Assembly: GCA_015521185.1 (NCBI GenBank)
Contig: WAOS01000050.1
Coordinates: forward strand, 1-32,067
Direction: 5' to 3'
Length of the DNA stretch: 32,067 nt
Source of the DNA: Desulfurococcales archaeon
Lineage (GTDB): Archaea > Thermoproteota > Thermoprotei_A > Sulfolobales > Acidilobaceae
Both the position numbers and the translations under genes were made by a program. Under the pieces are notes generated by a model. The model saw only the letters and a list, made by a program, of their open reading frames with translations, was not told where the DNA came from and searched no databases. Positions 8,003 to 26,573 of the stretch are shown here, in pieces; positions within the stretch are counted from its first letter, which is position 1, and every line of letters starts with the position of its first letter.

Positions 8003-9817
8003 CTAAATTATGGCCGCAATTATTCGTACGGACGCCAGCACTATGAGTATGTTCAGGCCGGCGAAGAGGAAGCCCGCTGCTATGCTCCCCTTCACAGTCT
8101 TCCCGGCTAGGAGGCTTATGAAGAACGTGTTAAGCACAATACCAGTATAGGATATGCTCTTCAGTATTGGAAGCATGTCCTCGCTCACCGGCTGTATGGG
8201 GAGGCCGAAGCCGGCTGCCTGCGCCCCGCTGGCTATTGTTGCCGCGACGCTCGTGAACTGTGCGAGGACCATCTCGTGGACGATCGTGAAGCCCAGGACT
8301 AAGCTTATGATTGCTATTAGTGCTCCCAGCTTGAACCCTAGGCTCCTATCCTCTATTATCCGGGCCACGCTAACCGTGTCCTCAGTGAAGCCGGCGAGGA
8401 GGTCCAGGCTTCTGGGATCAGCTCCGTAGCGGTCCGCAGTGTCTAGGAGCTGGAAGTAGAGGTTTGCCAGCCATGGGAGGCGGAGGCCCTTAATAGCGTC
8501 CTTAATGCTTATCCCGAGGCTCACCCTCGCAGCAATAACGCGGATAAGACTGTTCATCCTAGAGGGCAGCTGGAACCTCGTTAGGCCCACGATCGCCTGC
8601 TTGGGAGTCCTCCCCTTCTTCCCCTCCTCAGCAATGTATCTCGTGACTGTCGGTATGCTATAGAAGGTCTCGTCAGCCTCCTTGTACCAGCTGCGGAAGT
8701 ATATCCCGAACCCTATCGCTGTTATCGCCATGAGGAGGCCTGTGAACTCGTACTTCTCTATGCTCGCGTAGAGGAAGTACCGGTCCGGGACTATGAAGCC
8801 CGCGACTACGAATATGAAAAGCTCTAGTCCGACGCCTGCTAGGAGCCATCTCCTGGGCGGGGACTCGGCGAGCTCCTCCGGGTATACACTCTGGACGACG
8901 AAGAGCATTATGAGGAAGCTTAGGAAGGGCATTCCGATGCTCGCCGTGTAAGCCAGTGCTAACCCTTGGTTGCCGGCGAATAGCGCCCCTATTATTATGA
9001 GGGCGAGCGGTATGACGACGAAGAGCATGACCTCGAGGTTGGTTATTGTGCTGAACCTCTCGATAAGCCTATTTATCCTGTCCTCGAGTATCTTCATGAA
9101 GAAGCTCGTCTTCTCCAGGAGGATCCTATACTTGTCCCCGCCGGCCCTCTCCCCGGCGACCAGGGTCTGGTAGAACTCTCTCAGCTGCATGCTAGGGTGG
9201 AACCTGCTGATGTACTCGAGGGCCTCGGTATAGCTCATAATGTAGAAGAGCCTTATCTTCTCTATGAAGTGTATCTCCCTCTTGAACTGGCGGAAGAAGT
9301 CTATGCGGAGAGCCTCCCGGAGGGCCCTCTGGAGGGGCAGGTTAAGGCTGGCGGTCAAGGTCATGAACATCGAGATGAAGGGGAGCTCCTTCTCTATCCG
9401 GAACTTCCTGTTGCTCAGAAGCAGGTTGGTCTTGAGGTTCACGCTGAGAACCGTTAGTCCCCCCACAACTAGTAGTGCTACGGGTAATGCTAGAGCTATG
9501 AAGGGGTTTGCATAGAGGTTGACTACGAGGAGAGCGCCAACTGCGAGGAGGATGACTCCCGCTAGCATCATGATGTAGCCTGCGAGAACGGTCGTGGCGA
9601 GCCTATCCACGTCTATGACGGTATCCGCCATGAAGGCCTTCTTCATTAGGTCAGCAGTTATTCGGGCCCGCAGGGAGCGTGTCAGGCCCGCGCGGCTACG
9701 CCCAGCACCTGCCTCTCCCGGTCTCCGGAGGATGCCCTGCAGTATCGGGAGCCGCTTGCGCATGCGATCCCCTCGCCACCGCGCCGGACCGGTCGTGACG
9801 CGTTCTCCCCGGAACAC
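8003..9817 (-). CDS. FlaJ/TadC-like type II/IV secretion system F-domain membrane platform protein
   Basis: ~600 aa with multiple TM segments and two repeated T2SSF-like regions (PFISMFMTLTASLNLPLQRALRE... and TPKQAIVGLTRFQLPSRMNSLIRVIAARVSLGISIKDAI...). The true start may be ATG at 9763 (MRKRLPILQGI). Confidence 0.85.
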   Translation of the reverse strand: MFRGERVTTGPARWRGDRMRKRLPILQGILRRPGEAGAGRSRAGLTRSLRARITADLMKKAFMADTVIDVDRLATTVLAGYIMMLAGVILLAVGALLVVNLYANPFIALALPVALLVVGGLTVLSVNLKTNLLLSNRKFRIEKELPFISMFMTLTASLNLPLQRALREALRIDFFRQFKREIHFIEKIRLFYIMSYTEALEYISRFHPSMQLREFYQTLVAGERAGGDKYRILLEKTSFFMKILEDRINRLIERFSTITNLEVMLFVVIPLALIIIGALFAGNQGLALAYTASIGMPFLSFLIMLFVVQSVYPEELAESPPRRWLLAGVGLELFIFVVAGFIVPDRYFLYASIEKYEFTGLLMAITAIGFGIYFRSWYKEADETFYSIPTVTRYIAEEGKKGRTPKQAIVGLTRFQLPSRMNSLIRVIAARVSLGISIKDAIKGLRLPWLANLYFQLLDTADRYGADPRSLDLLAGFTEDTVSVARIIEDRSLGFKLGALIAIISLVLGFTIVHEMVLAQFTSVAATIASGAQAAGFGLPIQPVSEDMLPILKSISYTGIVLNTFFISLLAGKTVKGSIAAGFLFAGLNILIVLASVRIIAAII

Positions 9818-9923
9818 TTTTGTCCCAAGAACTAATAAGTCTGCTAGGGAGGCGACAGTTTATCTAGGCTGGCCTGCATCCTAGCGTAGGGTAGAGGGGA
9901 GCACGAGTAGAAAGGGTGGTTAC

Positions 9924-10391
9924 ATGTATACCGCGCCTACCGCTCTAATATCGCTAGTAGTGCTCCTACCAGTCCTAGCAGGCCTCGCCGCAGTCTACTA
10001 CAGCCACGTAAACCTGGCTCTGGCCACCGAGTGGCAGTCTGAGCGTGCCAGGGCAGCGAGAATAGCGGCTCTCATTATTGCTGGCGAGATAGCTCATAAC
10101 GCCACTCTGCAGTCCAAGATTAACTCTTCAAGCCTCACCCAGGCGGATCTCGAGTGGCTATCCCGTCTTGCTAGTACAGAGCTGAAGCGCGTTACAGGTG
10201 TACCCTACACTGTGGACGTATACATTTCAGCTTCCCGGCCAGTCGTCGTGCTGGGAGGCGGGGGGTACCTGCCCAGCCAGGAGGCGGTGGGGAGCTGGTC
10301 CTACACTCCTGGGGCCAACCCTAGGAGCTGGCACTACGAGGCGGTAAGCCTTCCCGGGGGGCTGGTGGTGGTAGTTGGGGCGGGCGTCTAG
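9924..10391 (+). CDS. Small N-terminally membrane-anchored protein, putative pilin/pseudopilin-like
   Basis: ATG with upstream gggtgg; N-terminal hydrophobic helix ALISLVVLLPVLAGLAAVYY; first of a tandem co-oriented cluster. Confidence 0.7.
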   Translation: MYTAPTALISLVVLLPVLAGLAAVYYSHVNLALATEWQSERARAARIAALIIAGEIAHNATLQSKINSSSLTQADLEWLSRLASTELKRVTGVPYTVDVYISASRPVVVLGGGGYLPSQEAVGSWSYTPGANPRSWHYEAVSLPGGLVVVVGAGV

Positions 10392-10815
10392 GAGGGGCAT
10401 AGTCCACATTATAGACGTTCTAATAGCGCTCGGAGTCATAGCCGCAGTAGTGATGGCAGGCGTTAGCGTGATAGTGGCTAAGCTCAACACCCGCCCCCAG
10501 AGCATGCCGGATCCCACCGGCCTCGATAGGTACATATCTGAGAGGCTTGGAAGCGGCGACTGGATCCCGCTGGTGGCCGAGGGCAGATCGTCGGAGATCC
10601 GGGCAGAGATCGAGAGCCTATACCAGGGATCTCCTCGCCCCGTCTACGTCGCTGTGTATATCTACGCGATTAACCCGTCCCTCGGAACCATAGGCGTCGT
10701 CGACAGCAGCGACCCCGGCCTGTACTCATCCTACGCCGTTCTGAGGTACTTCGTCCCCGTCGGGGGCTACTATGGAGATGTGAGCTACGTGCTGGAGGTG
10801 AGGGTCTACTGGTGA
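10375..10815 (+). CDS. Putative type IV pilin-like protein with class III-type signal (SRRGIVHIIDVLIALGV)
   Basis: TTG start overlapping the upstream stop. RRG followed by a hydrophobic helix. Confidence 0.7.
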   Translation: MGRASRRGIVHIIDVLIALGVIAAVVMAGVSVIVAKLNTRPQSMPDPTGLDRYISERLGSGDWIPLVAEGRSSEIRAEIESLYQGSPRPVYVAVYIYAINPSLGTIGVVDSSDPGLYSSYAVLRYFVPVGGYYGDVSYVLEVRVYW

Positions 10816-11591
10816 GGAGGGGCATAGCATACGTCTACCTATCGCTACTCGTCGCCTCAGCCGTAGCCATAGGAACACTCGCCGTCATAGCAGTGTATAT
10901 GAGCAGCCCAACAAACACGAGGGCCGCGCCAGAGTACGTGGACTTGCAAGCCAACATCACGGGAATGAAAACTGTGGCTCACTACTGCGTGGCCAAGGCC
11001 AGCGTTGACGACGCGATAACGAGCCAGCCAGACCCGGGCTACTCCTACGAATTAACCGGCCAGTACGCGGTCTACGCTAAGAGCAGCAACAGGCAGCCAC
11101 AGCGCCGGGTCGAGTGCTATAATATGGCTAAGACCGACGGGTCCTACTACCAGAAGGTCTGGGGGATCGATGTCTTCGTAAGGGTCAAGCCGGAGAGGAT
11201 AACGCTGACCGAGAGGTTCGGAGGCGCGTACCTAGACGTGGTTTTCCGCGCATACACGCTTCCGAAGGTCTACGTTAACAATAGTCTGGGCGTCGCAGAC
11301 TTCAAAGTGAAGATCTACTACAAAGCTGTGGTCACAGCATCGGACCCTAGCGGGGCCCGGGTGCTCGAGACCAGCGTCCCCATAAGGTTTGCCGAGTCGA
11401 CCCTCAGGGCTGGGCAGACAGTGAGGGAGTACCCAGTTAAGGTCAACGTGAGCGACGACCCGAACTATGACTGGGTGATTACTACGAGCTTCGTCCTAGA
11501 CCCGACAGGGCCGGACACCTACACTATCACAATAGACCTGTACCTCTTCAACGGCGCGCGTGACACTATCGAGGTGGAGGTGCGCTGGTAG
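10812..11591 (+). CDS. Putative type IV pilin-like protein (MRRGIAYVYLSLLVASAVAIG)
   Basis: GTG start overlapping the upstream stop by 4 bp. RRG plus hydrophobic N-terminal helix and beta-rich C-terminus. Confidence 0.72.
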   Translation: MRRGIAYVYLSLLVASAVAIGTLAVIAVYMSSPTNTRAAPEYVDLQANITGMKTVAHYCVAKASVDDAITSQPDPGYSYELTGQYAVYAKSSNRQPQRRVECYNMAKTDGSYYQKVWGIDVFVRVKPERITLTERFGGAYLDVVFRAYTLPKVYVNNSLGVADFKVKIYYKAVVTASDPSGARVLETSVPIRFAESTLRAGQTVREYPVKVNVSDDPNYDWVITTSFVLDPTGPDTYTITIDLYLFNGARDTIEVEVRW

Positions 11592-12187
11592 TGAGGCGCG
11601 GGATAACGATACTGTCCGACGTCGTGATGATCGTGGCACTCCTACTCATTATGAGCGGCCTATGGATATACACGGCAACATTCTACAAGGAGAAGAGAAC
11701 GCTTGAGTCCGTGGCTGCAGAGGAAATACTGACCCTCTACGGCACCATCGAGCAGGTCCTAAGCGACCCCGGAATGTGCACCTCCACAAGCCTGAGCATC
11801 CCCCCGGGCATAAGGATATACGTTGCAAACATAGAGGCAGATGGCCGGACCGGCACCCTACTAATTGCAAAGCCTTCCGGTGCTAGGATCGAACTGGGAG
11901 CAGTCCGAAACTTGCTAATCAGCCTCGGAGCGCCCAGAGAGGACGCATACCTCATCTACTCCGGCGGCGTCCTCCAGGGCGCGGGCCTAGTTGTGTGGAA
12001 CACAAGCGTGAGGGGCCTGGAGCCTGTTGACGCGTCGATCAGCGGGGGAACCCTGGATCTGGGCGGTGTAAACTGGGGCGGGAGCGATACGCTATTATAT
12101 TACAATTACAAGGATACTATTGTGAGAGTATGCTCGCGCTGGGACAATAACGCCCGCTCCACGGTGCTCGTGCTCCCCCAGGACTGA
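11591..12187 (+). CDS. Putative type IV pilin-like protein (MRRGITILSDVVMIVALLLIMSG)
   Basis: GTG start overlapping the upstream stop by 1 bp; same RRGI N-terminus. Confidence 0.72.
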   Translation: MRRGITILSDVVMIVALLLIMSGLWIYTATFYKEKRTLESVAAEEILTLYGTIEQVLSDPGMCTSTSLSIPPGIRIYVANIEADGRTGTLLIAKPSGARIELGAVRNLLISLGAPREDAYLIYSGGVLQGAGLVVWNTSVRGLEPVDASISGGTLDLGGVNWGGSDTLLYYNYKDTIVRVCSRWDNNARSTVLVLPQD

Positions 12188-12201
12188 AGGGGTGTCAGTA
12201 G

Positions 12202-13029
12202 GTGAGCGAAGTCGTCCTCCCGAGAACACTGCTCGCCGTGGCTATACTTGTAATAGCAGGGATAGCCGTGGGAGGAGCATACTACTTCTTCTTCAGGGGG
12301 CACTCGGCTCTAAACGCGCAGGCAATACAAGACATATCCTCCAGCCTAGGCGAGGCGGCAGGATCTGGAGAGGGCCAGAGTGAGCCCATAAGCTTCTCTG
12401 GGGGGAGTGTTTCCGTGGTTTATGAGACCCACAACCTCAGCATATACTACAATCTAAGCGAGACCCTCGGTAGCTTGCCGGGAGTGGGCGAGGTGAAGCC
12501 GATTATCTATGAGGCTAGCGTTAGGTTTCCAGTACTACTCATAGAGCCTGGCGGAGAGGTTGAGACTTACAACGACACGGGTCCAATACTTGGCGTTGCA
12601 AGTGCAGACCAGGGCCTAGCAGGCCTGGACAAGCTGGTCTACGCCTATAGCGACGGCCAGAAGATACTCGTTATCCCCAGACTAGTAATCCTGTACAGCG
12701 TTGACGACACGGAGGACAGGGTCAACCTAACAATTGTTGTGCCAAAGATGAACGTGACCTGCTCGACAGGGCAGTGCACAAATCTTAACGGCAAATACGC
12801 GATACGCGTGACAGCCAAGATCGTGGACGTACTCCCCGCCCCGTACGAGCCCTACAATCCCCTAGCGGAGGGGAGAGACATAGAGGCGAGCTTCAACGCT
12901 TCAGGCCCGACAATCATACCGGCCAACATGTTCGGTAAGGCGCCCATCACTAGCGTCGGCCTCGAGTACACTGTGAGCATAGACATCATGTATCTCTACT
13001 ACGATATCTACCTCGAGAGAGTGGGATAA
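12202..13029 (+). CDS. N-terminally membrane-anchored extracellular protein of the pilin-like operon
   Basis: GTG start; TM LLAVAILVIAGIAVGGAYYFFF followed by a beta-rich domain with N-glycosylation sequons. Confidence 0.72.
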   Translation: MSEVVLPRTLLAVAILVIAGIAVGGAYYFFFRGHSALNAQAIQDISSSLGEAAGSGEGQSEPISFSGGSVSVVYETHNLSIYYNLSETLGSLPGVGEVKPIIYEASVRFPVLLIEPGGEVETYNDTGPILGVASADQGLAGLDKLVYAYSDGQKILVIPRLVILYSVDDTEDRVNLTIVVPKMNVTCSTGQCTNLNGKYAIRVTAKIVDVLPAPYEPYNPLAEGRDIEASFNASGPTIIPANMFGKAPITSVGLEYTVSIDIMYLYYDIYLERVG

Positions 13030-13481
13030 TGGAGGAGGCGGTCGTAGAAGCAATAGTGCTCGTAAGCCTCATAGCGATAAGCACTGTGCTCGGGAGCTAC
13101 ATGGTCTACAGTAGCGTTCTCTCAGCGAAAGCGCTCGACGAGGAGAGAACGAAGAACCTAGCCCTAGACATAGCCTATTCCCTAGCGAAAGCGTGTGGAG
13201 AGCTCTACAGGCCCGACAAATACTCGGGATACACGTCAACGCACGCCTCTGTAGCGCTAACGGGTAGAGAGACCGTTAGGATAGATGGGTACGGCATAAT
13301 AGTGAACCCCGACGGTCCGGGCAGGCACGTGATTCAGAAGAGCACCCTAGAAGACCTGTGTAGCCGCGTAGCGGGCGAGCAAGTCAGCATAGAGCTAGTC
13401 CCGGGCACCAGTGTCGGTAGCACCCTCACGTTCCTCGTGGCCAGGAACAACAATACAGTGAGAATAGAAATATCCGGGTAG
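13029..13481 (+). CDS. Small N-terminally membrane-anchored pilin-like protein
   Basis: ATG at 13029 overlaps the upstream TAA stop (TAATG). TM AIVLVSLIAISTVLGSYMVY. Confidence 0.7.
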   Translation: MEEAVVEAIVLVSLIAISTVLGSYMVYSSVLSAKALDEERTKNLALDIAYSLAKACGELYRPDKYSGYTSTHASVALTGRETVRIDGYGIIVNPDGPGRHVIQKSTLEDLCSRVAGEQVSIELVPGTSVGSTLTFLVARNNNTVRIEISG

Positions 13482-13550: not shown

Positions 13551-14405
13551 TTGTCATCGCGCCCGATAAGGCTAGTAAGGATTGAGGGGGACCTGGACGA
13601 GGACCCATCATCCCGCCAAAGCCTGCTCTCGGGGTGGCGGCAGGACCTGATAAGGAAGAGCAGGGTCCTTGTCGTGGGGGCAGGGGCCCTGGGGAACGAG
13701 ATAATAAAGAATCTCACGCTGCTCGGTACAGGGCACATCAGAGTTGTGGACTTCGACATTGTAGAGGGAAGCAACCTTAGCAGGGCCGTCCTTTTTACGA
13801 AGGCAGACGCGAGGAAGAAGGTTAGGAAGGTCGACGCTATTAGGAGGGGCGTGAGGAGGCTGGACCCGTACGGCTACATAGAGATCGAGGCGTATCACAC
13901 CGATATTATGGATCACGGGCCGGAAAGCCCCATATTCAAGGGCGTGGACGTCATATTCACCGCCCTCGACAACCTAGAGGCTAGACTACACGTAAACGCG
14001 ATAGCGTACACCAAGAGGATACCCCTCATAGATGGCGGGATGGACGGCGCCATGGGCCACGTCCAGGTAGTCATACCGCCCTACACGAGCTGTCTCAACT
14101 GCAGCGTCACAGACAGGGACATGAAGGTGCTCAGCGAGAGGCTCAAGTGCGAAGGGATGCCCCTAACCATAGGGCAGCCGAAGACACCTGCGGTAATAAC
14201 AACTACGAGTGTGATAGCCGGCATAATGGTTCACGAGTATATCAAGATAATTCATGGTCTCGAGAAGTTCAAGCGCACGGGTAAGTGGGACGAGCGCCTC
14301 GGGGAGCCCCTGGCCGGGAAGAGGCTGTTCATAAACCTGGCGAACAACGTATTTATCAAGTACAAAGTGCCTATCTCGAGAACCTGCCTCCTACACGAGC
14401 AGTGA
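13551..14405 (+). CDS. E1-like ubiquitin-activating enzyme (ThiF/UBA3-like)
   Basis: VLVVGAGALGNEI (ATP-binding), VDFDIVEGSNLSRAVLF, FTALDNLEARLHVN, PLIDGGMDGAMGHVQVVIPPYTSCLNC, candidate catalytic C200 (LKCEGMPLTIG), then TPAVITTTSVIAGIMVHE. TTG start with ggtgagg SD. Confidence 0.93.
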   Translation: MSSRPIRLVRIEGDLDEDPSSRQSLLSGWRQDLIRKSRVLVVGAGALGNEIIKNLTLLGTGHIRVVDFDIVEGSNLSRAVLFTKADARKKVRKVDAIRRGVRRLDPYGYIEIEAYHTDIMDHGPESPIFKGVDVIFTALDNLEARLHVNAIAYTKRIPLIDGGMDGAMGHVQVVIPPYTSCLNCSVTDRDMKVLSERLKCEGMPLTIGQPKTPAVITTTSVIAGIMVHEYIKIIHGLEKFKRTGKWDERLGEPLAGKRLFINLANNVFIKYKVPISRTCLLHEQ

Positions 14406-14455: not shown

Positions 14456-14710
14456 GTGAGAGGCTTGAGAATCAAGGTTGCGGACGTCCTCTCAAATAAG
14501 GTGATAAGCATAGAGGTCGACCCGAACGTTACGGTCCGGGAGCTAATCGAGGCCATAATAGAAGCCCTGAAGCTCCCCAAGAATTACCTCTACAGTCTAG
14601 TCTACGCTAGCAAGGAGATAGGGCCGGACAAGTACGATATGACTCTCCGCGACCTGGGCATTAGGGAGGACGACGAGATACAGATAATCGGGAGACCGCA
14701 GGGTGGCTAG
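14456..14710 (+). CDS. Ubiquitin-like (beta-grasp) protein with exposed C-terminal Gly-Gly
   Basis: 84 aa; LRIKVADVLSNKVISIEVDPNVTVRELIEAIIEAL...TLRDLGIREDDEIQIIGRPQGG*. Lies between E1 and E2. TTG at 14465 is an alternative start. Confidence 0.9.
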   Translation: MRGLRIKVADVLSNKVISIEVDPNVTVRELIEAIIEALKLPKNYLYSLVYASKEIGPDKYDMTLRDLGIREDDEIQIIGRPQGG

Positions 14711-14751: not shown

Positions 14752-15294
14752 GTGGTCTTTCTCCCGCTAAAGCTCGTGCTGAAGAGGCTGGAGAACGAGG
14801 AGGCAGAGCTGAGGTCTCTCGGCTACGAGTTCACGGCCGAGGAACTCCACGACGGCTCGGATGGGAAGACTATTGAGCTCCTAACCATCAATGGGAGGGA
14901 GAGGCTGAACGTCATCAAGAGGTATAGGGTAACGATCAACGCTCGGGGCTACGAGCGGAGGCCGACAGGCGAGATAGTGCCCCGCTTCAGGCACGAGGTC
15001 TACATATACATTCTCAGGCACTACCCCTTCGTGGACACGAGGAGGTACGGGGCGCCGGTCCGTTTCCAGTGGATAACCCCGATATTCCACCCGAACATAT
15101 CGAACGGGATAGAGGCTGGGGGCCTAGGAATAGTGTGCTGGCACATCCTGAAGGAGTGGATCCCCAGCTTCACACTTCCGAAGATAGTTGAGGCTCTCAA
15201 GAGCCTAGTCGAGAATCCCAACCCCGACGACGCCCTGATCTACCCTGAAACCCTCGAGGCCGCCAGGTGGTTCGCGAGGAGGAGGCCCTCATGA
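14752..15294 (+). CDS. E2-like ubiquitin-conjugating enzyme (UBC fold)
   Basis: FQWITPIFHPNISNGIEAGGLGIVCWHILKEWIPSFTLPKIVEALKSLVENPNPDDALIYPE matches the canonical E2 HPN...G.(I)C..IL...W.P..tl..v..sl..l...PNPdD order. Active-site Cys is C129 (TGC at 15136-15138). Confidence 0.92.
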   Translation: MVFLPLKLVLKRLENEEAELRSLGYEFTAEELHDGSDGKTIELLTINGRERLNVIKRYRVTINARGYERRPTGEIVPRFRHEVYIYILRHYPFVDTRRYGAPVRFQWITPIFHPNISNGIEAGGLGIVCWHILKEWIPSFTLPKIVEALKSLVENPNPDDALIYPETLEAARWFARRRPS

Positions 15295-15758
15295 TGGAGC
15301 CCTCCAGCGCCCACATGCTCTACGAGGCCTTCATGAAAGCGTATGAGCACGCGAGTAAGGGCGCCCCGCTCGAGGTAGGAGGGTTCCTGCTGGGATACCT
15401 GGGAGAGTGGGAGGGAGAGTACTATCTCCTCATAACGCATGCCCTCCCCGTCCCGAGCAAGAGCACGAGAGTGACTGTCCAGCTCCTCAGCGACAATGTT
15501 GTCGAGGTCGTGAAGAAGATCAACGATATCAAGAGGAAAGAGGGGGTCTACATCGTTGGATGGTACCACAGCCACCCAGGATACACGTGCTACCCCTCCC
15601 GCCTCGACCTCCACAGCCACAGCACATACTTCAGAGAGCCCTACCAGGTCGGCCTCATCATAGACCCCATAAACGATCAGCACTGCGTCTTCAAGGCGGA
15701 AAACCCGTTAAACTACAAGCTCATACCATTCTACGTCTGGAGGAGGAAGGAGAAGTGA
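15291..15758 (+). CDS. JAMM/MPN+ (Rpn11/JAB-like) metalloprotease, putative deconjugase
   Basis: Catalytic EVGGFLLGYL and JAMM motif HSHPGYTCYPSRLD (HxH-x7-SxxD, 15567-15608). ATGA overlap with the E2 stop. Confidence 0.93.
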   Translation: MMEPSSAHMLYEAFMKAYEHASKGAPLEVGGFLLGYLGEWEGEYYLLITHALPVPSKSTRVTVQLLSDNVVEVVKKINDIKRKEGVYIVGWYHSHPGYTCYPSRLDLHSHSTYFREPYQVGLIIDPINDQHCVFKAENPLNYKLIPFYVWRRKEK

Positions 15759-16126: not shown

Positions 16127-18979
16127 ATGCATAAGCAGGTAGCCTGGAGAGTGTTATTCGCACATATGCTAATCCTTGCGATACTGATCGCGGTGGCGCC
16201 AACGCCCGCCTATGCTGAGGACATTACAATACTCACTGCTGAGAGTCTCCTACAGCCCGGAGGATACATCAAGCTCCTTATAACAGGGTTCCCGTCCAAC
16301 TCGACAGTGTACGTGCTGCTCGACAACGGGACACTCCTCGGGCTCCTAGTGACTGACGACCTCGGGAATGCTGAGGGTAACATTTCGATACCGCCGTACA
16401 TACGATCTGGTGACCACGAAATCGTGGCTATATATGCCAACGGCTCGGCCCTGTTCGTGGCCAAGGATGTAGTGACTATTGAGCCGGTTCCGCCCGAGCC
16501 TTCCTACAAGGTCGAGGTAGTGCTCGGCTCGAGCATCCCCCTGGGGGAGGAGACAAACTACTACGTAAAAGTGATAAGCGTCCCCGACGGGGCGCCCGTC
16601 GACCCCGACAGCTTAACCTGCAGCCTGTATAGTTCCAACGGCACAGTTCAAACCCTGATCCCTACCAGGATAAGCCAGGGCCTATACACGGGAGTGTTCA
16701 CCCCCACAGATCCCGGAGGCTATGCTCTAGAATGTACAGCCACAATAGGCCCTGTAGACGCAACGGGAATAGCGGGGGCCCACGTCTCGGCAGCGGAGAG
16801 CCTTATATTGGAGAACCTAACGCTAGCCCTCGACAAGCTCCTATCGATAGAGGCGAGCGTCAACCAGACGCTAAACAATACGTTCTGGATTCTCACAAAC
16901 ATATCCGAGGCGGAGAACAATATCACGAGCCTGCTGGAAAAGATCAACGCGTCAATCATAGAGAGGATTAGCACTGGAGAGGCGAACATAACGGTCGCTA
17001 TCAAGGACGCGAAGTCTGGGGTGGAGAACAACCTGACGGGCCTCATAAACAGCGTGTACCTTCTTGTTGAGAAATCTAACACGAGCATACACACCGCTCT
17101 CTCAGAGGCGTTCGAAGCCCTCAACACTAGTATAGCTAAGGTGAATGGTAGCGTTGAAAACCTGTCGATAATAATTGAGGACGACTACAATGATATACTC
17201 CTAGCAATCGACACCAGCACGGAGCTCGTGAGAACATACGTGAAGGACAGCGAGTCCAACATAACGGGCGAGGTAGAAGCGCAGGCCCAGTACCTAGCAG
17301 ATCTCCTATCGGAGTACAACTCAACGCTATACCTGCTGATTAAGAGCGAGTCGGGAGCTATACAGGAAGTTATCAGGGCCAGGGTCTCCAGCGCCGAGCA
17401 GAACCTAACAGCAAGGCTAGAGGCCCTGCAGGAGAGCATAGCCGAAGCTATATCCCTGGTTAGGAGTAGCAACGAGTCTCTGAGCACCCTAATAGTGAAC
17501 GAGACGGGCCGGCTCATGGCCTACATTAATGAGAGCTGCCTCGAGAAGCTGGGTAACCTAAGCGTGACCCTGGAGACTAATGTGACAAGCCTAATACAGT
17601 CGAGCTACAAGAATATAATGGACAATATTAACACTACTAGGGACGACATGGAGGCGTTAGTAATAAACGAGGCCGGCACCCTTGTCGCACTCATAAACGG
17701 CCTCAGCGGTAAGGTAGACGCTAACACGCAGCTCCTATCAGACATAATCGCGAGCGCCAACCAAAGCATACAGGTACTCATAACGCAGAAGGCCGACACG
17801 CTGCTCCAGGCCATAAGCAACCTGGCGGAGGACCTAGACGAGACTAACCAGAGCCTCCGGGACCTCATAAAGGAGCGGGCAGCCTGGATACTGGCGAACG
17901 TATCGCAGTCCTACGACGGCATAACAGGCCTCATACAGTACGAGTCGACAACCATAGTGGGAGAAGTTAGGAACTCGACAAGCTTCCTGTCCAGCGCTAT
18001 ATCGCTGGCAAAGCAGGAGCTAGAGGGCAACATCACCATGAGAATACAGGCCTCCCAGAACGCGATCATCCTAGAGATAGGGGACTCCGAGAATGAGGTG
18101 CTAGCGGCCATAGCGAGCGCTAACCAGAGCCTCCACGGGCTCGTAACAACCGAGACGGACCGGGTGATCGGGAGCATAACAGCTGCTCGCGCAATAACCG
18201 GGGCCCTCATAATGAATGTGAGCCAGAGGCTCGAGAGGAACCTCTCTGCTCTCATCATGGACGAGGCCAACCGAACCATATACAAGCTCGACATTGTCAA
18301 CGCCAGCATAACTAGCCTGCTACTGACTAGCGAGGGCGAGATAATAGCTAACATTAGCAACGGGACCATAAAGCTCCAGGCCCAGATAGGGAGGGTCGCA
18401 AGCAACCTAACAGACCTCATCCTAGGCCAGACCGGGGAGCTATCGAGCATGATAGCATCCGTCAACATGAGCCTCACAGCACTCATAAACGGTAGAGTCG
18501 CCGAGCTCCGGGGCGAGCTCGTAGGCGTTATCAATAGCTCGGCGGCGCGGGTACTGGAAGCGTTATCAGCTGGCTACGAGGAGCTAAACGCCACAGTCCT
18601 AAACGCGGAGGCCCGTATCCTCTCAGGTATCGACAGCCTCAACGCCAGCATGAGCCTAGAAGGGGCCAGGCTCGAGTCCATAATAGTCAACAGGAGCGGG
18701 GCAGTAATGGCCCTAGTCAACACGACCAATAGGACGCTCGTCCTGAGAATCGCGGACCTAAGCAACTCTGTAGCCGCTATCGGTAGCAGCCTAGACGCGA
18801 AGCTAGACACGGTGCTCAGCAAGCTGTCCAGCATGGAGAACAACATGTCCGAGCAGATAAGGAGGAGCACGGACGAGGTCAAAAGCGTGGCCTCGAACTA
18901 CGGCGTCTCGAGCACCACCGCAAGCGTAATCACACTACTAGCGGTCAGCGGCCTCGCCATATTCATGAGGAGGAGCTAA
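16127..18979 (+). CDS. Large surface stalk protein: signal peptide, two beta-sandwich-like domains, ~650-aa hendecad coiled coil, C-terminal TM
   Basis: Signal peptide LILAILIAVAPTPAYA|ED. Long low-complexity helical region with 22-residue periodicity and many NxS/T sequons. C-terminal ASVITLLAVSGLAIFMRRS. Confidence 0.88.
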   Translation: MHKQVAWRVLFAHMLILAILIAVAPTPAYAEDITILTAESLLQPGGYIKLLITGFPSNSTVYVLLDNGTLLGLLVTDDLGNAEGNISIPPYIRSGDHEIVAIYANGSALFVAKDVVTIEPVPPEPSYKVEVVLGSSIPLGEETNYYVKVISVPDGAPVDPDSLTCSLYSSNGTVQTLIPTRISQGLYTGVFTPTDPGGYALECTATIGPVDATGIAGAHVSAAESLILENLTLALDKLLSIEASVNQTLNNTFWILTNISEAENNITSLLEKINASIIERISTGEANITVAIKDAKSGVENNLTGLINSVYLLVEKSNTSIHTALSEAFEALNTSIAKVNGSVENLSIIIEDDYNDILLAIDTSTELVRTYVKDSESNITGEVEAQAQYLADLLSEYNSTLYLLIKSESGAIQEVIRARVSSAEQNLTARLEALQESIAEAISLVRSSNESLSTLIVNETGRLMAYINESCLEKLGNLSVTLETNVTSLIQSSYKNIMDNINTTRDDMEALVINEAGTLVALINGLSGKVDANTQLLSDIIASANQSIQVLITQKADTLLQAISNLAEDLDETNQSLRDLIKERAAWILANVSQSYDGITGLIQYESTTIVGEVRNSTSFLSSAISLAKQELEGNITMRIQASQNAIILEIGDSENEVLAAIASANQSLHGLVTTETDRVIGSITAARAITGALIMNVSQRLERNLSALIMDEANRTIYKLDIVNASITSLLLTSEGEIIANISNGTIKLQAQIGRVASNLTDLILGQTGELSSMIASVNMSLTALINGRVAELRGELVGVINSSAARVLEALSAGYEELNATVLNAEARILSGIDSLNASMSLEGARLESIIVNRSGAVMALVNTTNRTLVLRIADLSNSVAAIGSSLDAKLDTVLSKLSSMENNMSEQIRRSTDEVKSVASNYGVSSTTASVITLLAVSGLAIFMRRS

Positions 18980-20140
18980 GGCTAGCCTAAGCAGGGCCCT
19001 TGCAAGAGCTTTTTCCCTCCAGTCCTCATCGCTAGCGAGAGCACTAAGCTCCTCCTCAATAACGCGCCTAGCCCTCCGGACCGCTTCGGGGCCGCCCAGA
19101 ACAGCTCTGGCCCCGAGGCTCGGGAGCACAACCCTTAGCTCGTCTCCCGTCTCCATCCTCGCCATCGACCCAGGCATAAGGCGGGCCACGCTCCTGGCAG
19201 CCTCTACTATTCCAGCTATGGGGGCAGCGCTCAGCTCGTCCCTAACTGCGGCCCGGACCGCCCTACCCCTCCTAGCATACCATATACTTTCGATACTAGC
19301 GCCTGACCAGCGGTAGATCGGTACAGCCAGCGAGATCTCCCTCTCCACGGCTCTCCTAAGCCCGGGGACAGTGTTGTCATATACTATGACAGCAACACTC
19401 TCGGCCGAGGCTAGGTCCTCGTGGCGGAGGACAACAAGCATGCCCGGGATATCACCTATAACTCTCCGGGCGACAGCCTCGATGAGGGGCGATTCAACCC
19501 TAGTTATGTGTCTCTCCAGGAGGGCGTCCCGAGTGGGAAGCCTCTCAGCCTCGACTACCCGCCAGGCCTCCTCCGCGCTCCTATACACGTCCTTAGCCTC
19601 CTCAACGTTCATAGGCGGCTCGAGAGGGCAGTACCCTCTGGGGAAGCATAGCTCCCTCCTTATCCGTGCCTCGAGCCTCCCAAACACGCTGGCCTTGCCA
19701 GGCCATAGCTCTGCAGCGAGTCGGAGGGCCTGGAGCCTGTCGAGGGGCCTGGTGAGGGCCCACTCAAGCCTTGTGCGGACCGCCTCCGTGTAGAGTACTG
19801 CAGCGTCGAAGTAGTAGAGCCTCGAGGCTGCCCACTCGGCCGCTGAGGCGAGAGCCCTAGCAGCCTCCCGCCCGGCAGACTCGAGGACCTCTTCCAGCCT
19901 AGCAGCAGCTTCCAGAGCACTCGCCGACTCCTGTAGGACTCTTAGGGCCCCCGATAGATCGCCGCTGAGAGCTCGCTGGGCCGTGAGTAGGAGCTCTCTA
20001 ATGCCCGGGTCTCCCGATAGAGCGGACAGCTCGAGGGCCTCCCTTATCGTGGCTCCCGTCCTAGCCAGCGTTGAGGAGAGCCTGCTAAGGGCTATAAGGA
20101 GCGACAGGAGGCTGCGCTCCCCGTAGAGGTCCTCACTCAC
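18938..20140 (-). CDS. Hypothetical protein, third gene of the RING-like operon
   Basis: Long ORF; likely GTG start at 20140 near the end of the upstream gene. Alpha-helical, Ala/Arg/Leu-rich. Overlaps convergently with the 3' end of the 950-aa protein gene. Confidence 0.75.
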   Translation of the reverse strand: MSEDLYGERSLLSLLIALSRLSSTLARTGATIREALELSALSGDPGIRELLLTAQRALSGDLSGALRVLQESASALEAAARLEEVLESAGREAARALASAAEWAASRLYYFDAAVLYTEAVRTRLEWALTRPLDRLQALRLAAELWPGKASVFGRLEARIRRELCFPRGYCPLEPPMNVEEAKDVYRSAEEAWRVVEAERLPTRDALLERHITRVESPLIEAVARRVIGDIPGMLVVLRHEDLASAESVAVIVYDNTVPGLRRAVEREISLAVPIYRWSGASIESIWYARRGRAVRAAVRDELSAAPIAGIVEAARSVARLMPGSMARMETGDELRVVLPSLGARAVLGGPEAVRRARRVIEEELSALASDEDWREKALARALLRLALAPPHEYGEAADR

Positions 20141-20924
20141 CTCCCCATAGCACCCCCTCGATCTCCTCGAGGACCCGGCGGAACCTCTCAACGATCTCCC
20201 TATCGGTCCGGAGGCCCGCGAGCACGAGCGACAGTCCCCGGCGGACCGCTGGATCCCGCGATCCCTCCAGGAGGGACTCGACCCCCTCGATGCTCTCCTC
20301 GAGCCCCCGAATCCTGGCCTTGAGAGCCTTCTGGCTGGGTATGTAGACGGTTATCGTCTCCCCCCAGGGAGCCTCGACAGTTCTCGACAAGAGCGTGACG
20401 ACAGGGTAGAGGTAAACGCTCGCCCTGTAGAGCATCCTAAGAGCCTCCTCGAAGCCCGCTAGCTCCACGGGCCTCCTAGACTCGATGTCGTCGAGAACCA
20501 TTATCCCGAGACTCCTATACTGCTCGAGCCTAGAGTTGTAGTAGAGCGCGCGGCTCAGGGCCCTACGCGGATTAGCAGGGCTCGAGAGCAGGTCGCGGAC
20601 GCTCCGGAGAAAGCCGAGGTATACCGCCCTCACCTCCCGCCTGAAATAGGATATACCCTCGGGACCCGTCTGAACACTTCTAAAGGCCTCGAAAGCCTTC
20701 GCAAGAGGAACCCCGCTGCTCTCCCGGGGCGTGACTACGGTGACTAGTCTCTTCCTCTGGAGCGAGTCCAGGAGCTCACGGACGCGCTGCGCGTCGAGCC
20801 CGAGAGCCTCGGCGGCGCGTTCCACGTCTACGAACGCCTCGCCCTCCGGACCGATCTGGAAGAGAATGTATGAGAGGAGGAGGTACTCCTCCCTAGTCAT
20901 GCCCATCCAGAGCTCCTCGCTCAT
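20133..20924 (-). CDS. Hypothetical protein with possible N-terminal winged-helix domain
   Basis: EEYLLLSYILFQIGPEGEAFVDVERAAEALGLDAQRVRELLDSLQRKRLVTVV resembles a wHTH. ATGA-type overlap with the upstream RING-like gene. Confidence 0.75.
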   Translation of the reverse strand: MSEELWMGMTREEYLLLSYILFQIGPEGEAFVDVERAAEALGLDAQRVRELLDSLQRKRLVTVVTPRESSGVPLAKAFEAFRSVQTGPEGISYFRREVRAVYLGFLRSVRDLLSSPANPRRALSRALYYNSRLEQYRSLGIMVLDDIESRRPVELAGFEEALRMLYRASVYLYPVVTLLSRTVEAPWGETITVYIPSQKALKARIRGLEESIEGVESLLEGSRDPAVRRGLSLVLAGLRTDREIVERFRRVLEEIEGVLWGGE

Positions 20925-21238
20925 GCTCGCACCTCCGCCAGCCTGAGGACCTCAGCCACCGGCATCTTCCTGCCGCAGAAGAAGCATACTGCCTCCTCTA
21001 GAGGCATCCCGCTACTCTCAGCCGCAGCACGGAGGCACTCGAGATGGTACATGCTCCCGCAGTACGGGCACATGACGACCCTTCCCCCAGCCAGGATGCT
21101 TCCCTGACATATGAGGCACTTATCCGGCAAGGACCCGCCCAGCCTCACCTTGAGGCCTCTACTCCTCCTCGACTTTCTCTGCGACCCGCTGAGGATTAGC
21201 CTGGCGATTGCTCGGGTGTTGCAGGCTACCACGGGCAT
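20921..21238 (-). CDS. RING/PHD-like (C4-H-C3) zinc-binding protein, candidate E3
   Basis: CLIC-x12-CPYC-x4-H-x2-C-x16-CFFC (20975-21118). The start is placed at ATG 21238 (MPVVACNTRAIARL) because the ORF-track ATG at 21283 falls on the putative TATA box. Confidence 0.8.
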   Translation of the reverse strand: MPVVACNTRAIARLILSGSQRKSRRSRGLKVRLGGSLPDKCLICQGSILAGGRVVMCPYCGSMYHLECLRAAAESSGMPLEEAVCFFCGRKMPVAEVLRLAEVRA

Positions 21239-21282
21239 CCCGTGATCCACCGCCGGGATGGGAGCATAGTGGGCCGAGGGCA

Positions 21283-21290
21283 AATATATT
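21283..21290. promoter_or_regulatory. Putative bidirectional/shared TATA element
   Basis: ggcAAATATATTgtgg sits between the divergent RING-like operon (-) and the membrane protein operon (+), at plausible spacing for both. Confidence 0.4.
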
Positions 21291-24001: not shown

Positions 24002-24118
24002 TGGTGCGGCCGCCGGGATTTGAACCCGGGATCGCCGGCTTCTCCCTCCCGCGCAGCAGTGGGCCCCCGCAGGGGGCTTGGAAGGCCGGCGTCCTAGTCC
24101 AGGCTAGACGACGGCCGC
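24002..24118 (-). tRNA. tRNA-Gly(TCC) with a 38-nt intron at position 37/38 (24041-24078); CCA encoded
   Basis: Reverse complement GCGGCCG TC GTCTAGCCTGGACTAGGAC G CCGGC CTTCCA [intron] A GCCGG CGATC CCGGGTTCAAATCCCGG CGGCCGC A CCA. All arms pair once the intron is removed. Confidence 0.9.
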
Positions 24119-24704: not shown

Positions 24705-26573
24705 TTACTTCTCCCCAGACTCTTCATGTATGCCGCTCGATATGTCTAGGATCCTAATCCTCGGCTTGGCCGGCTCCTCGGGAGCGGCACTCGCGGGGCG
24801 CTCCTCGCGGGCACCGGCAGCTATCGCTTCGCCGCGGAGGCGGGCCTCGACCTCTGATATGTAGCTGTAGGCTTTCTCCGGGTCCTCCATGAATAGCCAG
24901 AATACTTTCGTTACCTCCGCGTAGTCGAGCAGGGGAGTCTCGGGGTAGTTGTCTACGTGCTCCTTCAGCCTCTGGAGGAGCGCGACTCTCCTGCCATACT
25001 CCTCTAGGAACTCTGCCTCGGTCCACCCGCGGAGCTCCATTATTCTCTTGGCAGTGCTGCTCCAAGCTATGTCCTCGACACGCTCGAAACTGTCTGTTGC
25101 GAGATTGTACTTGAATAGCGGCTTAATCTCGTCGGTGTCCTGGGAGGGATCATAGTTGTAATCGTATATCCCGGTTACTCTCCTTATAGGTACGGCCACC
25201 CTCCGCCCATCCTTCTCTATTTTACGAGTGAAGCGGCCGGTCGTGACTATTACTTTGAGGGCTGTTAGGAGGCTCTTCTCAACGCTAATAGGCGGGCTCG
25301 TAAGCCTCGCAATCATAGCCTGCGGGCTCTCAGCGTGGAAAGTCGTTATACCGCCGTGGCCCGTAGCTATCGCTTGGGCCCACACCTTGCCCTCCTCTCC
25401 TCTCACCTCCCCGATTATCACGTAGTCCGCGCTCTCCCTGAGCGCGTGCTTGACGAGCTTGAACATGTCTATGCTTCCTCTCCCTTCAATAGTTAAGGAC
25501 TCCCTAGTCTTATGCTGGATCCAGTAGGGATGGCTGAGCCTAAGCTCTGGGGTATCCTCGATAGTTACGATAGTCGCGTCCCTAGGGATGAAGTTTGCGA
25601 TAGCATTCATAACACTAGTCTTACCGCTACCCATCGGGCCCACAATCATTATGCCCTGCTTCGTCTCAACCGCCAGCATGAGCCAGGCCGCCATCTCCGG
25701 GCTTATAGCGTTCTTCTTCATTAGCCTCGTTATGCTCCAGGCCTTCTCCGGGAACTTCCTTATGACAATAACGGGGCCCCTCGTCGTAGTCTCCCTGCTA
25801 TACGCAACCGTGAGCCGGTGGCCCTCTGGCAGTTGCAGGCTAGCCAGGGGCATGTAGAGGCTCACGCTGCTCCCGGTCCGCGCGACATATTTCTCTATGT
25901 ACCTGTTAACGTCGTCGTCCGACTCGAACACTATGTTGGTCTCGAGGCTCCCGAGCTCGCGGTGCACAACCTTTACGGGGACCCCGACCGCGGGCACCTG
26001 GATATCCTCGATGTCCGGGTCTCTAACGAGAGGATCTAGGACGCCGTAGCCGAAGAGCTCTCTCCTGACAAGATACTCCACCTCCCTGCTAAGGTTCAAC
26101 CTACCGAGAAGCTCGTTGAGGACCTCCTCGTCCTCAAGCGCCCTAGCTATTAGCTCGCTCTCCGTGAGGAAGAAAAGCTGGGTGATCGCTCTCTCCAGCT
26201 CGCTTAGCGTATCCTCCGTTAGCTCGGGATCCCTCACTATGTATCGCTTGTCCGACGTGATCAGGACCTCCGGAAAGGGCGCGCCTGGCGGAACGTATGG
26301 TCCTCTGACTATTTCTGCGCCATCAACACTAACGGGCCTAGCAGTCAGTATCTTGATGCTCGGGAGCCTGAAACCGCCTGCCTCCTCGGGAGGCCGCTTC
26401 TCCGGCTTTTTCCTGCGCTCCTCCTTCTTTTCTTCCTTCTTAACGCTTAGCCTAACGCTTATGACGAGCTCTTCCGGGGCCTCGACGCGGATTATCTTGA
26501 CGCGCTCCTCCTCTTCCTCCTTCCTCTTCCTAGTCGGGAAGAACCTCGGCAAAAGGGGCCACCAGCCTCCCAC
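24705..26573 (-). CDS. Type II/IV secretion/pilus assembly ATPase (TadA/FlaI/GspE-like)
   Basis: Walker A GPMGSGKTSVMNAIANF, TIEDTPELRL, ADYVIIGEVRGEE, ATGHGGITTFHAES. Confidence 0.95.
   Translation of the reverse strand: MGGWWPLLPRFFPTRKRKEEEEERVKIIRVEAPEELVISVRLSVKKEEKKEERRKKPEKRPPEEAGGFRLPSIKILTARPVSVDGAEIVRGPYVPPGAPFPEVLITSDKRYIVRDPELTEDTLSELERAITQLFFLTESELIARALEDEEVLNELLGRLNLSREVEYLVRRELFGYGVLDPLVRDPDIEDIQVPAVGVPVKVVHRELGSLETNIVFESDDDVNRYIEKYVARTGSSVSLYMPLASLQLPEGHRLTVAYSRETTTRGPVIVIRKFPEKAWSITRLMKKNAISPEMAAWLMLAVETKQGIMIVGPMGSGKTSVMNAIANFIPRDATIVTIEDTPELRLSHPYWIQHKTRESLTIEGRGSIDMFKLVKHALRESADYVIIGEVRGEEGKVWAQAIATGHGGITTFHAESPQAMIARLTSPPISVEKSLLTALKVIVTTGRFTRKIEKDGRRVAVPIRRVTGIYDYNYDPSQDTDEIKPLFKYNLATDSFERVEDIAWSSTAKRIMELRGWTEAEFLEEYGRRVALLQRLKEHVDNYPETPLLDYAEVTKVFWLFMEDPEKAYSYISEVEARLRGEAIAAGAREERPASAAPEEPAKPRIRILDISSGIHEESGEK

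Follow-up and report, generated by a model that had tools for sequence, protein, structure and literature searches.

We have asked here whether a small cysteine-rich protein encoded near an archaeal ubiquitin-like conjugation cassette could act as the E3 of that cassette. The window, by which we mean the whole 32,067-nucleotide stretch of DNA analysed, comes from the genome of a hot-spring archaeon of the Desulfurococcales (a 1.05-Mb bin, 77% complete) and carries the E1, modifier, E2 and protease genes of the cassette within an island of pilus-related genes. Complete prokaryotic E1-E2-E3 ubiquitin-like systems are few, and that of Candidatus Caldiarchaeum subterraneum is the only reconstituted archaeal one that we found; its E3, the small RING finger protein srfp, is required for ubiquitylation in the reconstituted system (PMC5654768). 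The cassette and its larger surroundings are listed here, with G004 denoting another species of the genus.

8003..9817, minus strand: type IV pilus membrane platform protein, TadC/PilC type (Pfam T2SSF 1.2e-9)
13551..14405, plus strand: E1-like enzyme, ThiF family (Pfam ThiF 4.2e-50)
14456..14710, plus strand: ubiquitin-like modifier (Ubl), 84 aa, ending RPQGG with no extension after GG; 85% identical in G004
14752..15294, plus strand: E2-like enzyme (Pfam UQ_con 2.5e-9; alignments)
15267..15758, plus strand: JAMM-type deconjugating protease, GWYHSHPGY...D (sequence, with weak family-level matches to NCBIfam desampylase, 2.8e-7, and PADLOC JAB, 3.5e-9)
16127..18979, plus strand: coiled-coil surface-type protein of 950 aa, lying between the cassette genes and those of the minus-strand operon; 35% identical in G004
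24705..26573, minus strand: type IV pilus/secretion ATPase, TadA type (Pfam T2SSE 2.2e-30; homologue near a Calditenuaceae cassette)

The protein of interest is encoded on the opposite strand to the cassette, 5.2 kb from the end of the JAMM gene (15758) and 5.6 kb from that of the E2 gene (15294), in agreement with the roughly 5 kb given in a first-pass annotation of this DNA. Its gene and those that follow it are arranged as listed below, with residues numbered in the longest open frame.

18938..20191, minus strand: protein of 417 aa, family unknown, encoded third in the minus-strand set; 30% identical homologue at the same place in G004
20133..20924, minus strand: winged-helix protein, 263 aa (Pfam MarR_2 3.7e-5, below its cut-off); 40% identical to the protein encoded next to the RING gene in G004
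20921..21238, minus strand: gene of the RING-like zinc protein, 105 aa when read from the likely ATG (scores exceed the Pfam cut-offs of both Prok-RING_1 and PHD)
20975..21118, minus strand: RING-like domain, C56 to C103, ligands C56, C59, C72, C75, H80, C83, C100 and C103
21140..21184, minus strand: basic linker preceding the RING (SQRKSRRSRGLKVRL), from the sequence; the G004 homologue is basic too
21282..21290, minus strand: putative TATA-like element AAATATATT of the minus-strand operon, from a reading of the sequence

The frame at 20921-21283 remains open up to 21283 and encodes 120 aa. It contains, letter for letter, the C4HC3 motif that had been described for it, C56-L-I-C59, x12, C72-P-Y-C75, x4, H80, x2, C83, x16, C100-F-F-C103. 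This is the single match of its kind when the window is read in all six frames. Shuffling the residues gives an expectation of 0 matches per window, and the motif never arose in 200,000 shuffles of the RING protein itself. Judged by sequence conservation the frame is a real gene, with an intact homologue in G004 that shares 48% identity and all eight ligands. The true start is probably the ATG at 21238 (M16), because this matches the start of the 106-aa G004 homologue and leaves the TATA-like AAATATATT about 48 nt upstream, whereas the alternative TTG start at 21283 would fall within that element. With M16 as the start, the N-terminus that had been called Ala/Val/Ile-rich shrinks to a short MPVVACNTRAIARLIL stretch, although the basic region described with it (SQRKSRRSRGLKVR) is real and is conserved in kind in the G004 homologue.

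The protein scores above cut-off with Pfam Prok-RING_1 (PF14446; 33.6 bits against a cut-off of 29.1, over profile positions 5-37 of 54) and with Pfam PHD (27.6 bits, cut-off 24), and its core is predicted to be a cross-brace RING fold. The AlphaFold model, built with 18 sequences, has a pLDDT of about 80-87 over the RING, and its best PDB matches by Foldseek are E3 RING domains (TRIM37, RNF165 and EL5) and no zinc ribbons, which answers in favour of a RING the choice of fold that the first-pass annotation had left to structure prediction. The individual comparisons (TRIM37 3lrq, prob 1.00; 1iym, TMt 0.72, rmsd 1.9 A; 5ulk, TMt 0.72, rmsd 2.2 A) carry weak E-values of 0.01-0.1, as is expected of a domain of only about 50 residues, and the fold assignment therefore leans on sequence and model together. 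PHD fingers and RINGv (MARCH) domains share the C4HC3 ligand order, although the model is closer to E3 RINGs. We reject a PHD finger, in spite of the passing Pfam score, since there is no Trp two residues before the seventh ligand (E97-A98-V99-C100), and a RINGv domain, since its C3-x-C4-x7-H spacing is absent (C72-x2-C75-x4-H80). The canonical eukaryotic RING orders are C3HC4 and C3H2C3, whereas that of the window RING, C4HC3, is the prokaryotic RING order according to a review (PMC11354881). Within Prok-RING_1, the planctomycete members that adjoin related E2s are longer, at about 270-280 aa, and have a membrane segment at the N-terminus, whereas the window protein is 105 aa long and bears only the RING.

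Profile alignment identifies the window protein as a homologue of srfp, an archaeal RING E3. A profile of the window and G004 proteins aligns with srfp homologues, drawn from the Caldarchaeales of the examined phylum and not including the Caldiarchaeum sequence itself, with an hhalign Prob of 97.4 and an E of 1.1e-11 over 55 columns that span the whole RING (31% identity, all eight ligands aligned); the ligands are identical in the G004 homologue, and they are in register with, and identical to, the eight of srfp. The Caldarchaeales homologues read CPVC-x12/13-CPFC-x4-H-x2-C-x10-CPIC-K, as in L151:1480-1713, which lies directly after E1. The window protein resembles srfp in being a small stand-alone RING with the same C4HC3 order, near-identical spacing up to C83 and a CxI/VC first loop, and in being encoded with E1, E2, Ubl and JAMM. 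It differs in lying 5 kb from the cassette, in an operon of its own on the other strand together with a winged-helix gene, and in the C6-C7 loop, which is x16 rather than about x10; the cassette's E2 is also of a different type, with extra segments.

The residues through which srfp acts are only partly retained. I30, W58 and R69 of srfp are important for ubiquitylation, which suffers when W58 or R69 is mutated, and PY67/68 and PS103/104 of the E2 contact the RING (PMC5654768). I30, a hydrophobic E2 contact between the first and second ligands, corresponds to I58 and is kept in both species. Trp58, in the C6-C7 loop, is not kept (Ala87 in the window RING, Leu in G004), and neither is the linchpin Arg69, which is Gly104 in both; we set Arg69 at the position after the last ligand on the basis of its distance from W58 and its description in PMC5654768, and of the next two residues Arg105 is not conserved and Lys106 is. 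On the other side of the putative interface, alignments place in the window E2 an HPN motif, the catalytic C129, loop 4 (Y91-P92-F93) and loop 7 (W136-I-P138-S139), the two loops being the positions that match PY67/68 and PS103/104. The E2 interface expected of an E3 is thus present in its isoleucine and in the Y-P-F and W-x-P of the E2, but not in the Trp and Arg of srfp, and with these two missing the ligase activity of the window RING is a prediction. The lost linchpin may point to a docking factor with weak activation, to a contact supplied by a partner, or to a stand-in such as the conserved Lys106.

We consider it likely that the window RING serves the E1-Ubl-E2-JAMM cassette of the same locus as its E3, and in broader terms it is probably the cassette's RING E3 or E2-docking factor, acting with the winged-helix protein in a pilus-linked locus. 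The E1 would charge the Ubl at its GG end, and the Ubl would be handed on to C129 of the E2; the RING would then dock on the E2 via I58 and the C7-C8 loop and carry E2~Ubl to the substrate, from which the JAMM protease would take the tag off. The winged-helix protein, the start of whose gene overlaps the RING gene, would probably form one unit with the RING and supply target or DNA binding. Candidate targets would be the pilus or surface proteins encoded in this island.

The association with the winged-helix gene bears on both this proposal and its main alternative. The RING, winged-helix and 417-aa genes form a three-gene minus-strand set in that order, the winged-helix start overlaps the RING stop (ATGA), and this overlap of RING and winged-helix genes is seen in both species. 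G327, an archaeon from a different family, has a 434-aa ORF (L052:5396-6700) about 1.1 kb from the JAMM gene of an E1/E2/JAMM cassette. When 601 ORFs are compared with the winged-helix profile, the N-terminus of this ORF scores best, and its C-terminus contains a C4HC3-like finger. Each half is weak alone (hhalign Prob 8-23% and 11%), although both halves together with the position suggest a natural fusion of winged helix and RING. The cassette loci of the Calditenuaceae hold winged-helix proteins of 346-361 aa, which rank 3 and 4 of the 601 ORFs with the same profile and are better candidates than the 280-aa protein directly after their RING, for which homology to the window's winged-helix protein found no support (Prob 1%). 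For the third gene, comparison of the 417-aa protein with a 379-aa protein of G088 gave a suggestive motif and homology without significance. In the Smc5/6 complex, Nse1 likewise combines a winged helix with a C4HC3 RING, as the possible G327 fusion would, and Foldseek lists Nse1 for the models of both the window RING and the Calditenuaceae protein, although no sequence homology is seen and the likeness is an analogy only.

C4HC3 RINGs can be non-ligase scaffolds, as in Slx1, and a non-catalytic RING that together with the winged helix regulates the pilus/Ubl island through DNA or protein binding, with the cassette using its E2 alone or an E3 encoded elsewhere, is an unlikely reading. The missing linchpin and Trp, the strict pairing with the winged-helix gene and the basic linker are all consistent with it, as are the Foldseek matches to Slx1 and Nse1, both of which have C4HC3 RINGs. 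However, the E2-contact isoleucine and the E3-docking loops of the E2 are kept, srfp homologues elsewhere lie directly after E1, and RING relatives track the E2 and not merely regulators, as the distribution described below indicates.

G004 is collinear with the window over a 16.5-kb block from TadC to a 469-aa gene, interrupted only where a contig ends within JAMM. In a set of 60 relatives, the RING, E2 and winged-helix genes are each confined to the window's genome (G000) and G004, and three other genomes of the genus are without all of them. Of 214 genomes from the order, three carry the E2 (G000, G004 and G088), and strong matches to the RING protein occur only in two of these, so that its distribution follows that of the E2, a dependence that the first-pass annotation had proposed to examine; no RING was found in G088, which is 77% complete and in which the contig is 5.6 kb. 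A close form of TadC (68% identity) is likewise limited to G000 and G004, and the island therefore appears to have been gained or lost as one within the genus; since one whole island is common to the two species, their RING/E2 co-occurrence is not independent and alone proves little. Two small RING-like proteins, weak matches from two genomes of another family of the order (L011:1474-1791 and L012:1507-1782; CAIC...CSIC...H..C...CPYD; E 2e-4 and 6e-4) were set aside, as they have other neighbours and no E2 nearby or elsewhere in the genome, and a weak match in G001 (L164) has a different, zinc-ribbon-like Cys layout.

In the phylum (398 genomes), a RING-family model that also picks up canonical srfp RINGs has a match in 41 of 52 E2-positive and 26 of 346 E2-negative genomes (Fisher p 5e-28, shared ancestry ignored), and in 24 genomes a match lies within 10 kb of an E2, with a chance of about 3% each. 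This co-occurrence is strong but does not represent independent events, because the p-values ignore shared ancestry and the matches are mostly from Caldarchaeales. In four Calditenuaceae genomes (Caldarchaeales) the same E2 type is accompanied, about 3 kb away, by a 99-108-aa RING-like protein, CPVD-x11-CPTC-x4-H-x2-C-x10-CWKC, in which the second ligand position is Asp; hhalign profile comparison with the window/G004 pair gives an E of 2e-6, and its model, although weaker, also has RINGs nearest. A wider search found related E2s in Lokiarchaeota, Micrarchaeota, Thermoplasmata, Methanomassiliicoccales and Planctomycetes, and the RING-family model found RING-like proteins near those of Lokiarchaeota and Planctomycetes (Prok-RING_1), with further matches in Micrarchaeota and Thermoplasmata. 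The suggestion that the window protein is a candidate E3 thus gains support from homology, model and distribution, with catalysis as its predicted part.

Upstream of the cassette are six pilin-like genes and the TadC/PilC-type gene (window 8003-13481), and downstream are the 950-aa coiled-coil protein, the RING operon, two conserved genes and the TadA-type ATPase. This position between pilus genes, together with the pilus ATPase and platform genes that likewise flank the Calditenuaceae cassettes, could fit a RING that is not an E3 but recognises Ubl conjugates, or serves as a Ubl/E2 adaptor, and takes tagged proteins to the pilus/secretion machinery; we think this quite improbable, as pilus genes are near just 5 of 80 related E2 loci and RING genes are more widespread there. 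That the protein is a plain zinc ribbon or a chance cysteine motif with no tie to the cassette is so improbable that we dismiss it, for although short Cys-rich proteins are common in archaea and weak zinc-ribbon Pfam matches are seen, the motif has zero shuffle matches, a RING family scores above cut-off, the model is a RING and the protein is conserved across species.

Returning to the window RING as the E3 of its cassette, we regard this Desulfurococcales locus as a second archaeal type of system: its E2 belongs to a class of its own, its RING lacks the residues that canonically support catalysis, it comes with a winged-helix partner, and its genomic setting ties it to pili. The open-licence literature searched contained no report of such a cassette being linked with pilus genes in two lineages. 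A more speculative extension, possible though doubtful, is a two-subunit RING and winged-helix E3 (perhaps fused in one lineage) that lacks the usual linchpin and serves a separate archaeal Ubl branch dedicated to type IV pilus/surface machinery; such an E3 would be the prokaryotic equivalent of Nse1 and other ligases that combine a winged helix with a C4HC3 RING. The protein set is probably heat-stable and suited to testing what a minimal RING needs, and the locus hints at the targets of early ubiquitin-like systems.

Several further observations were made at these loci. The Calditenuaceae E2 carries the Ubl as an in-frame N-terminal fusion (...RPVGG, then E2; L057:9755-10576, also L055, L056 and L058), and the Ubl may therefore need JAMM cleavage for its release. 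Lokiarchaeota E2 loci encode up to three proteins with multiple membrane spans and a C-terminal RING-like finger, mostly C8 (L062:5947-7014, 11034-12017 and 12336-13385), and in many Caldarchaeales cassettes srfp is followed, at a distance of about 2 kb, by a second protein, a membrane protein of about 230-260 aa that bears a RING at its C-terminus (L139:952-1704 and similar). A known defence system was rejected for the window, as PADLOC returns generic E1 and JAB matches only, with none for the RING or winged helix, and PHROGs returns none. Rfam places a tRNA at window 24005-24118 (minus strand, 45.4 bits) that is absent from the ARAGORN output; being 114 nt long, it probably bears an intron.
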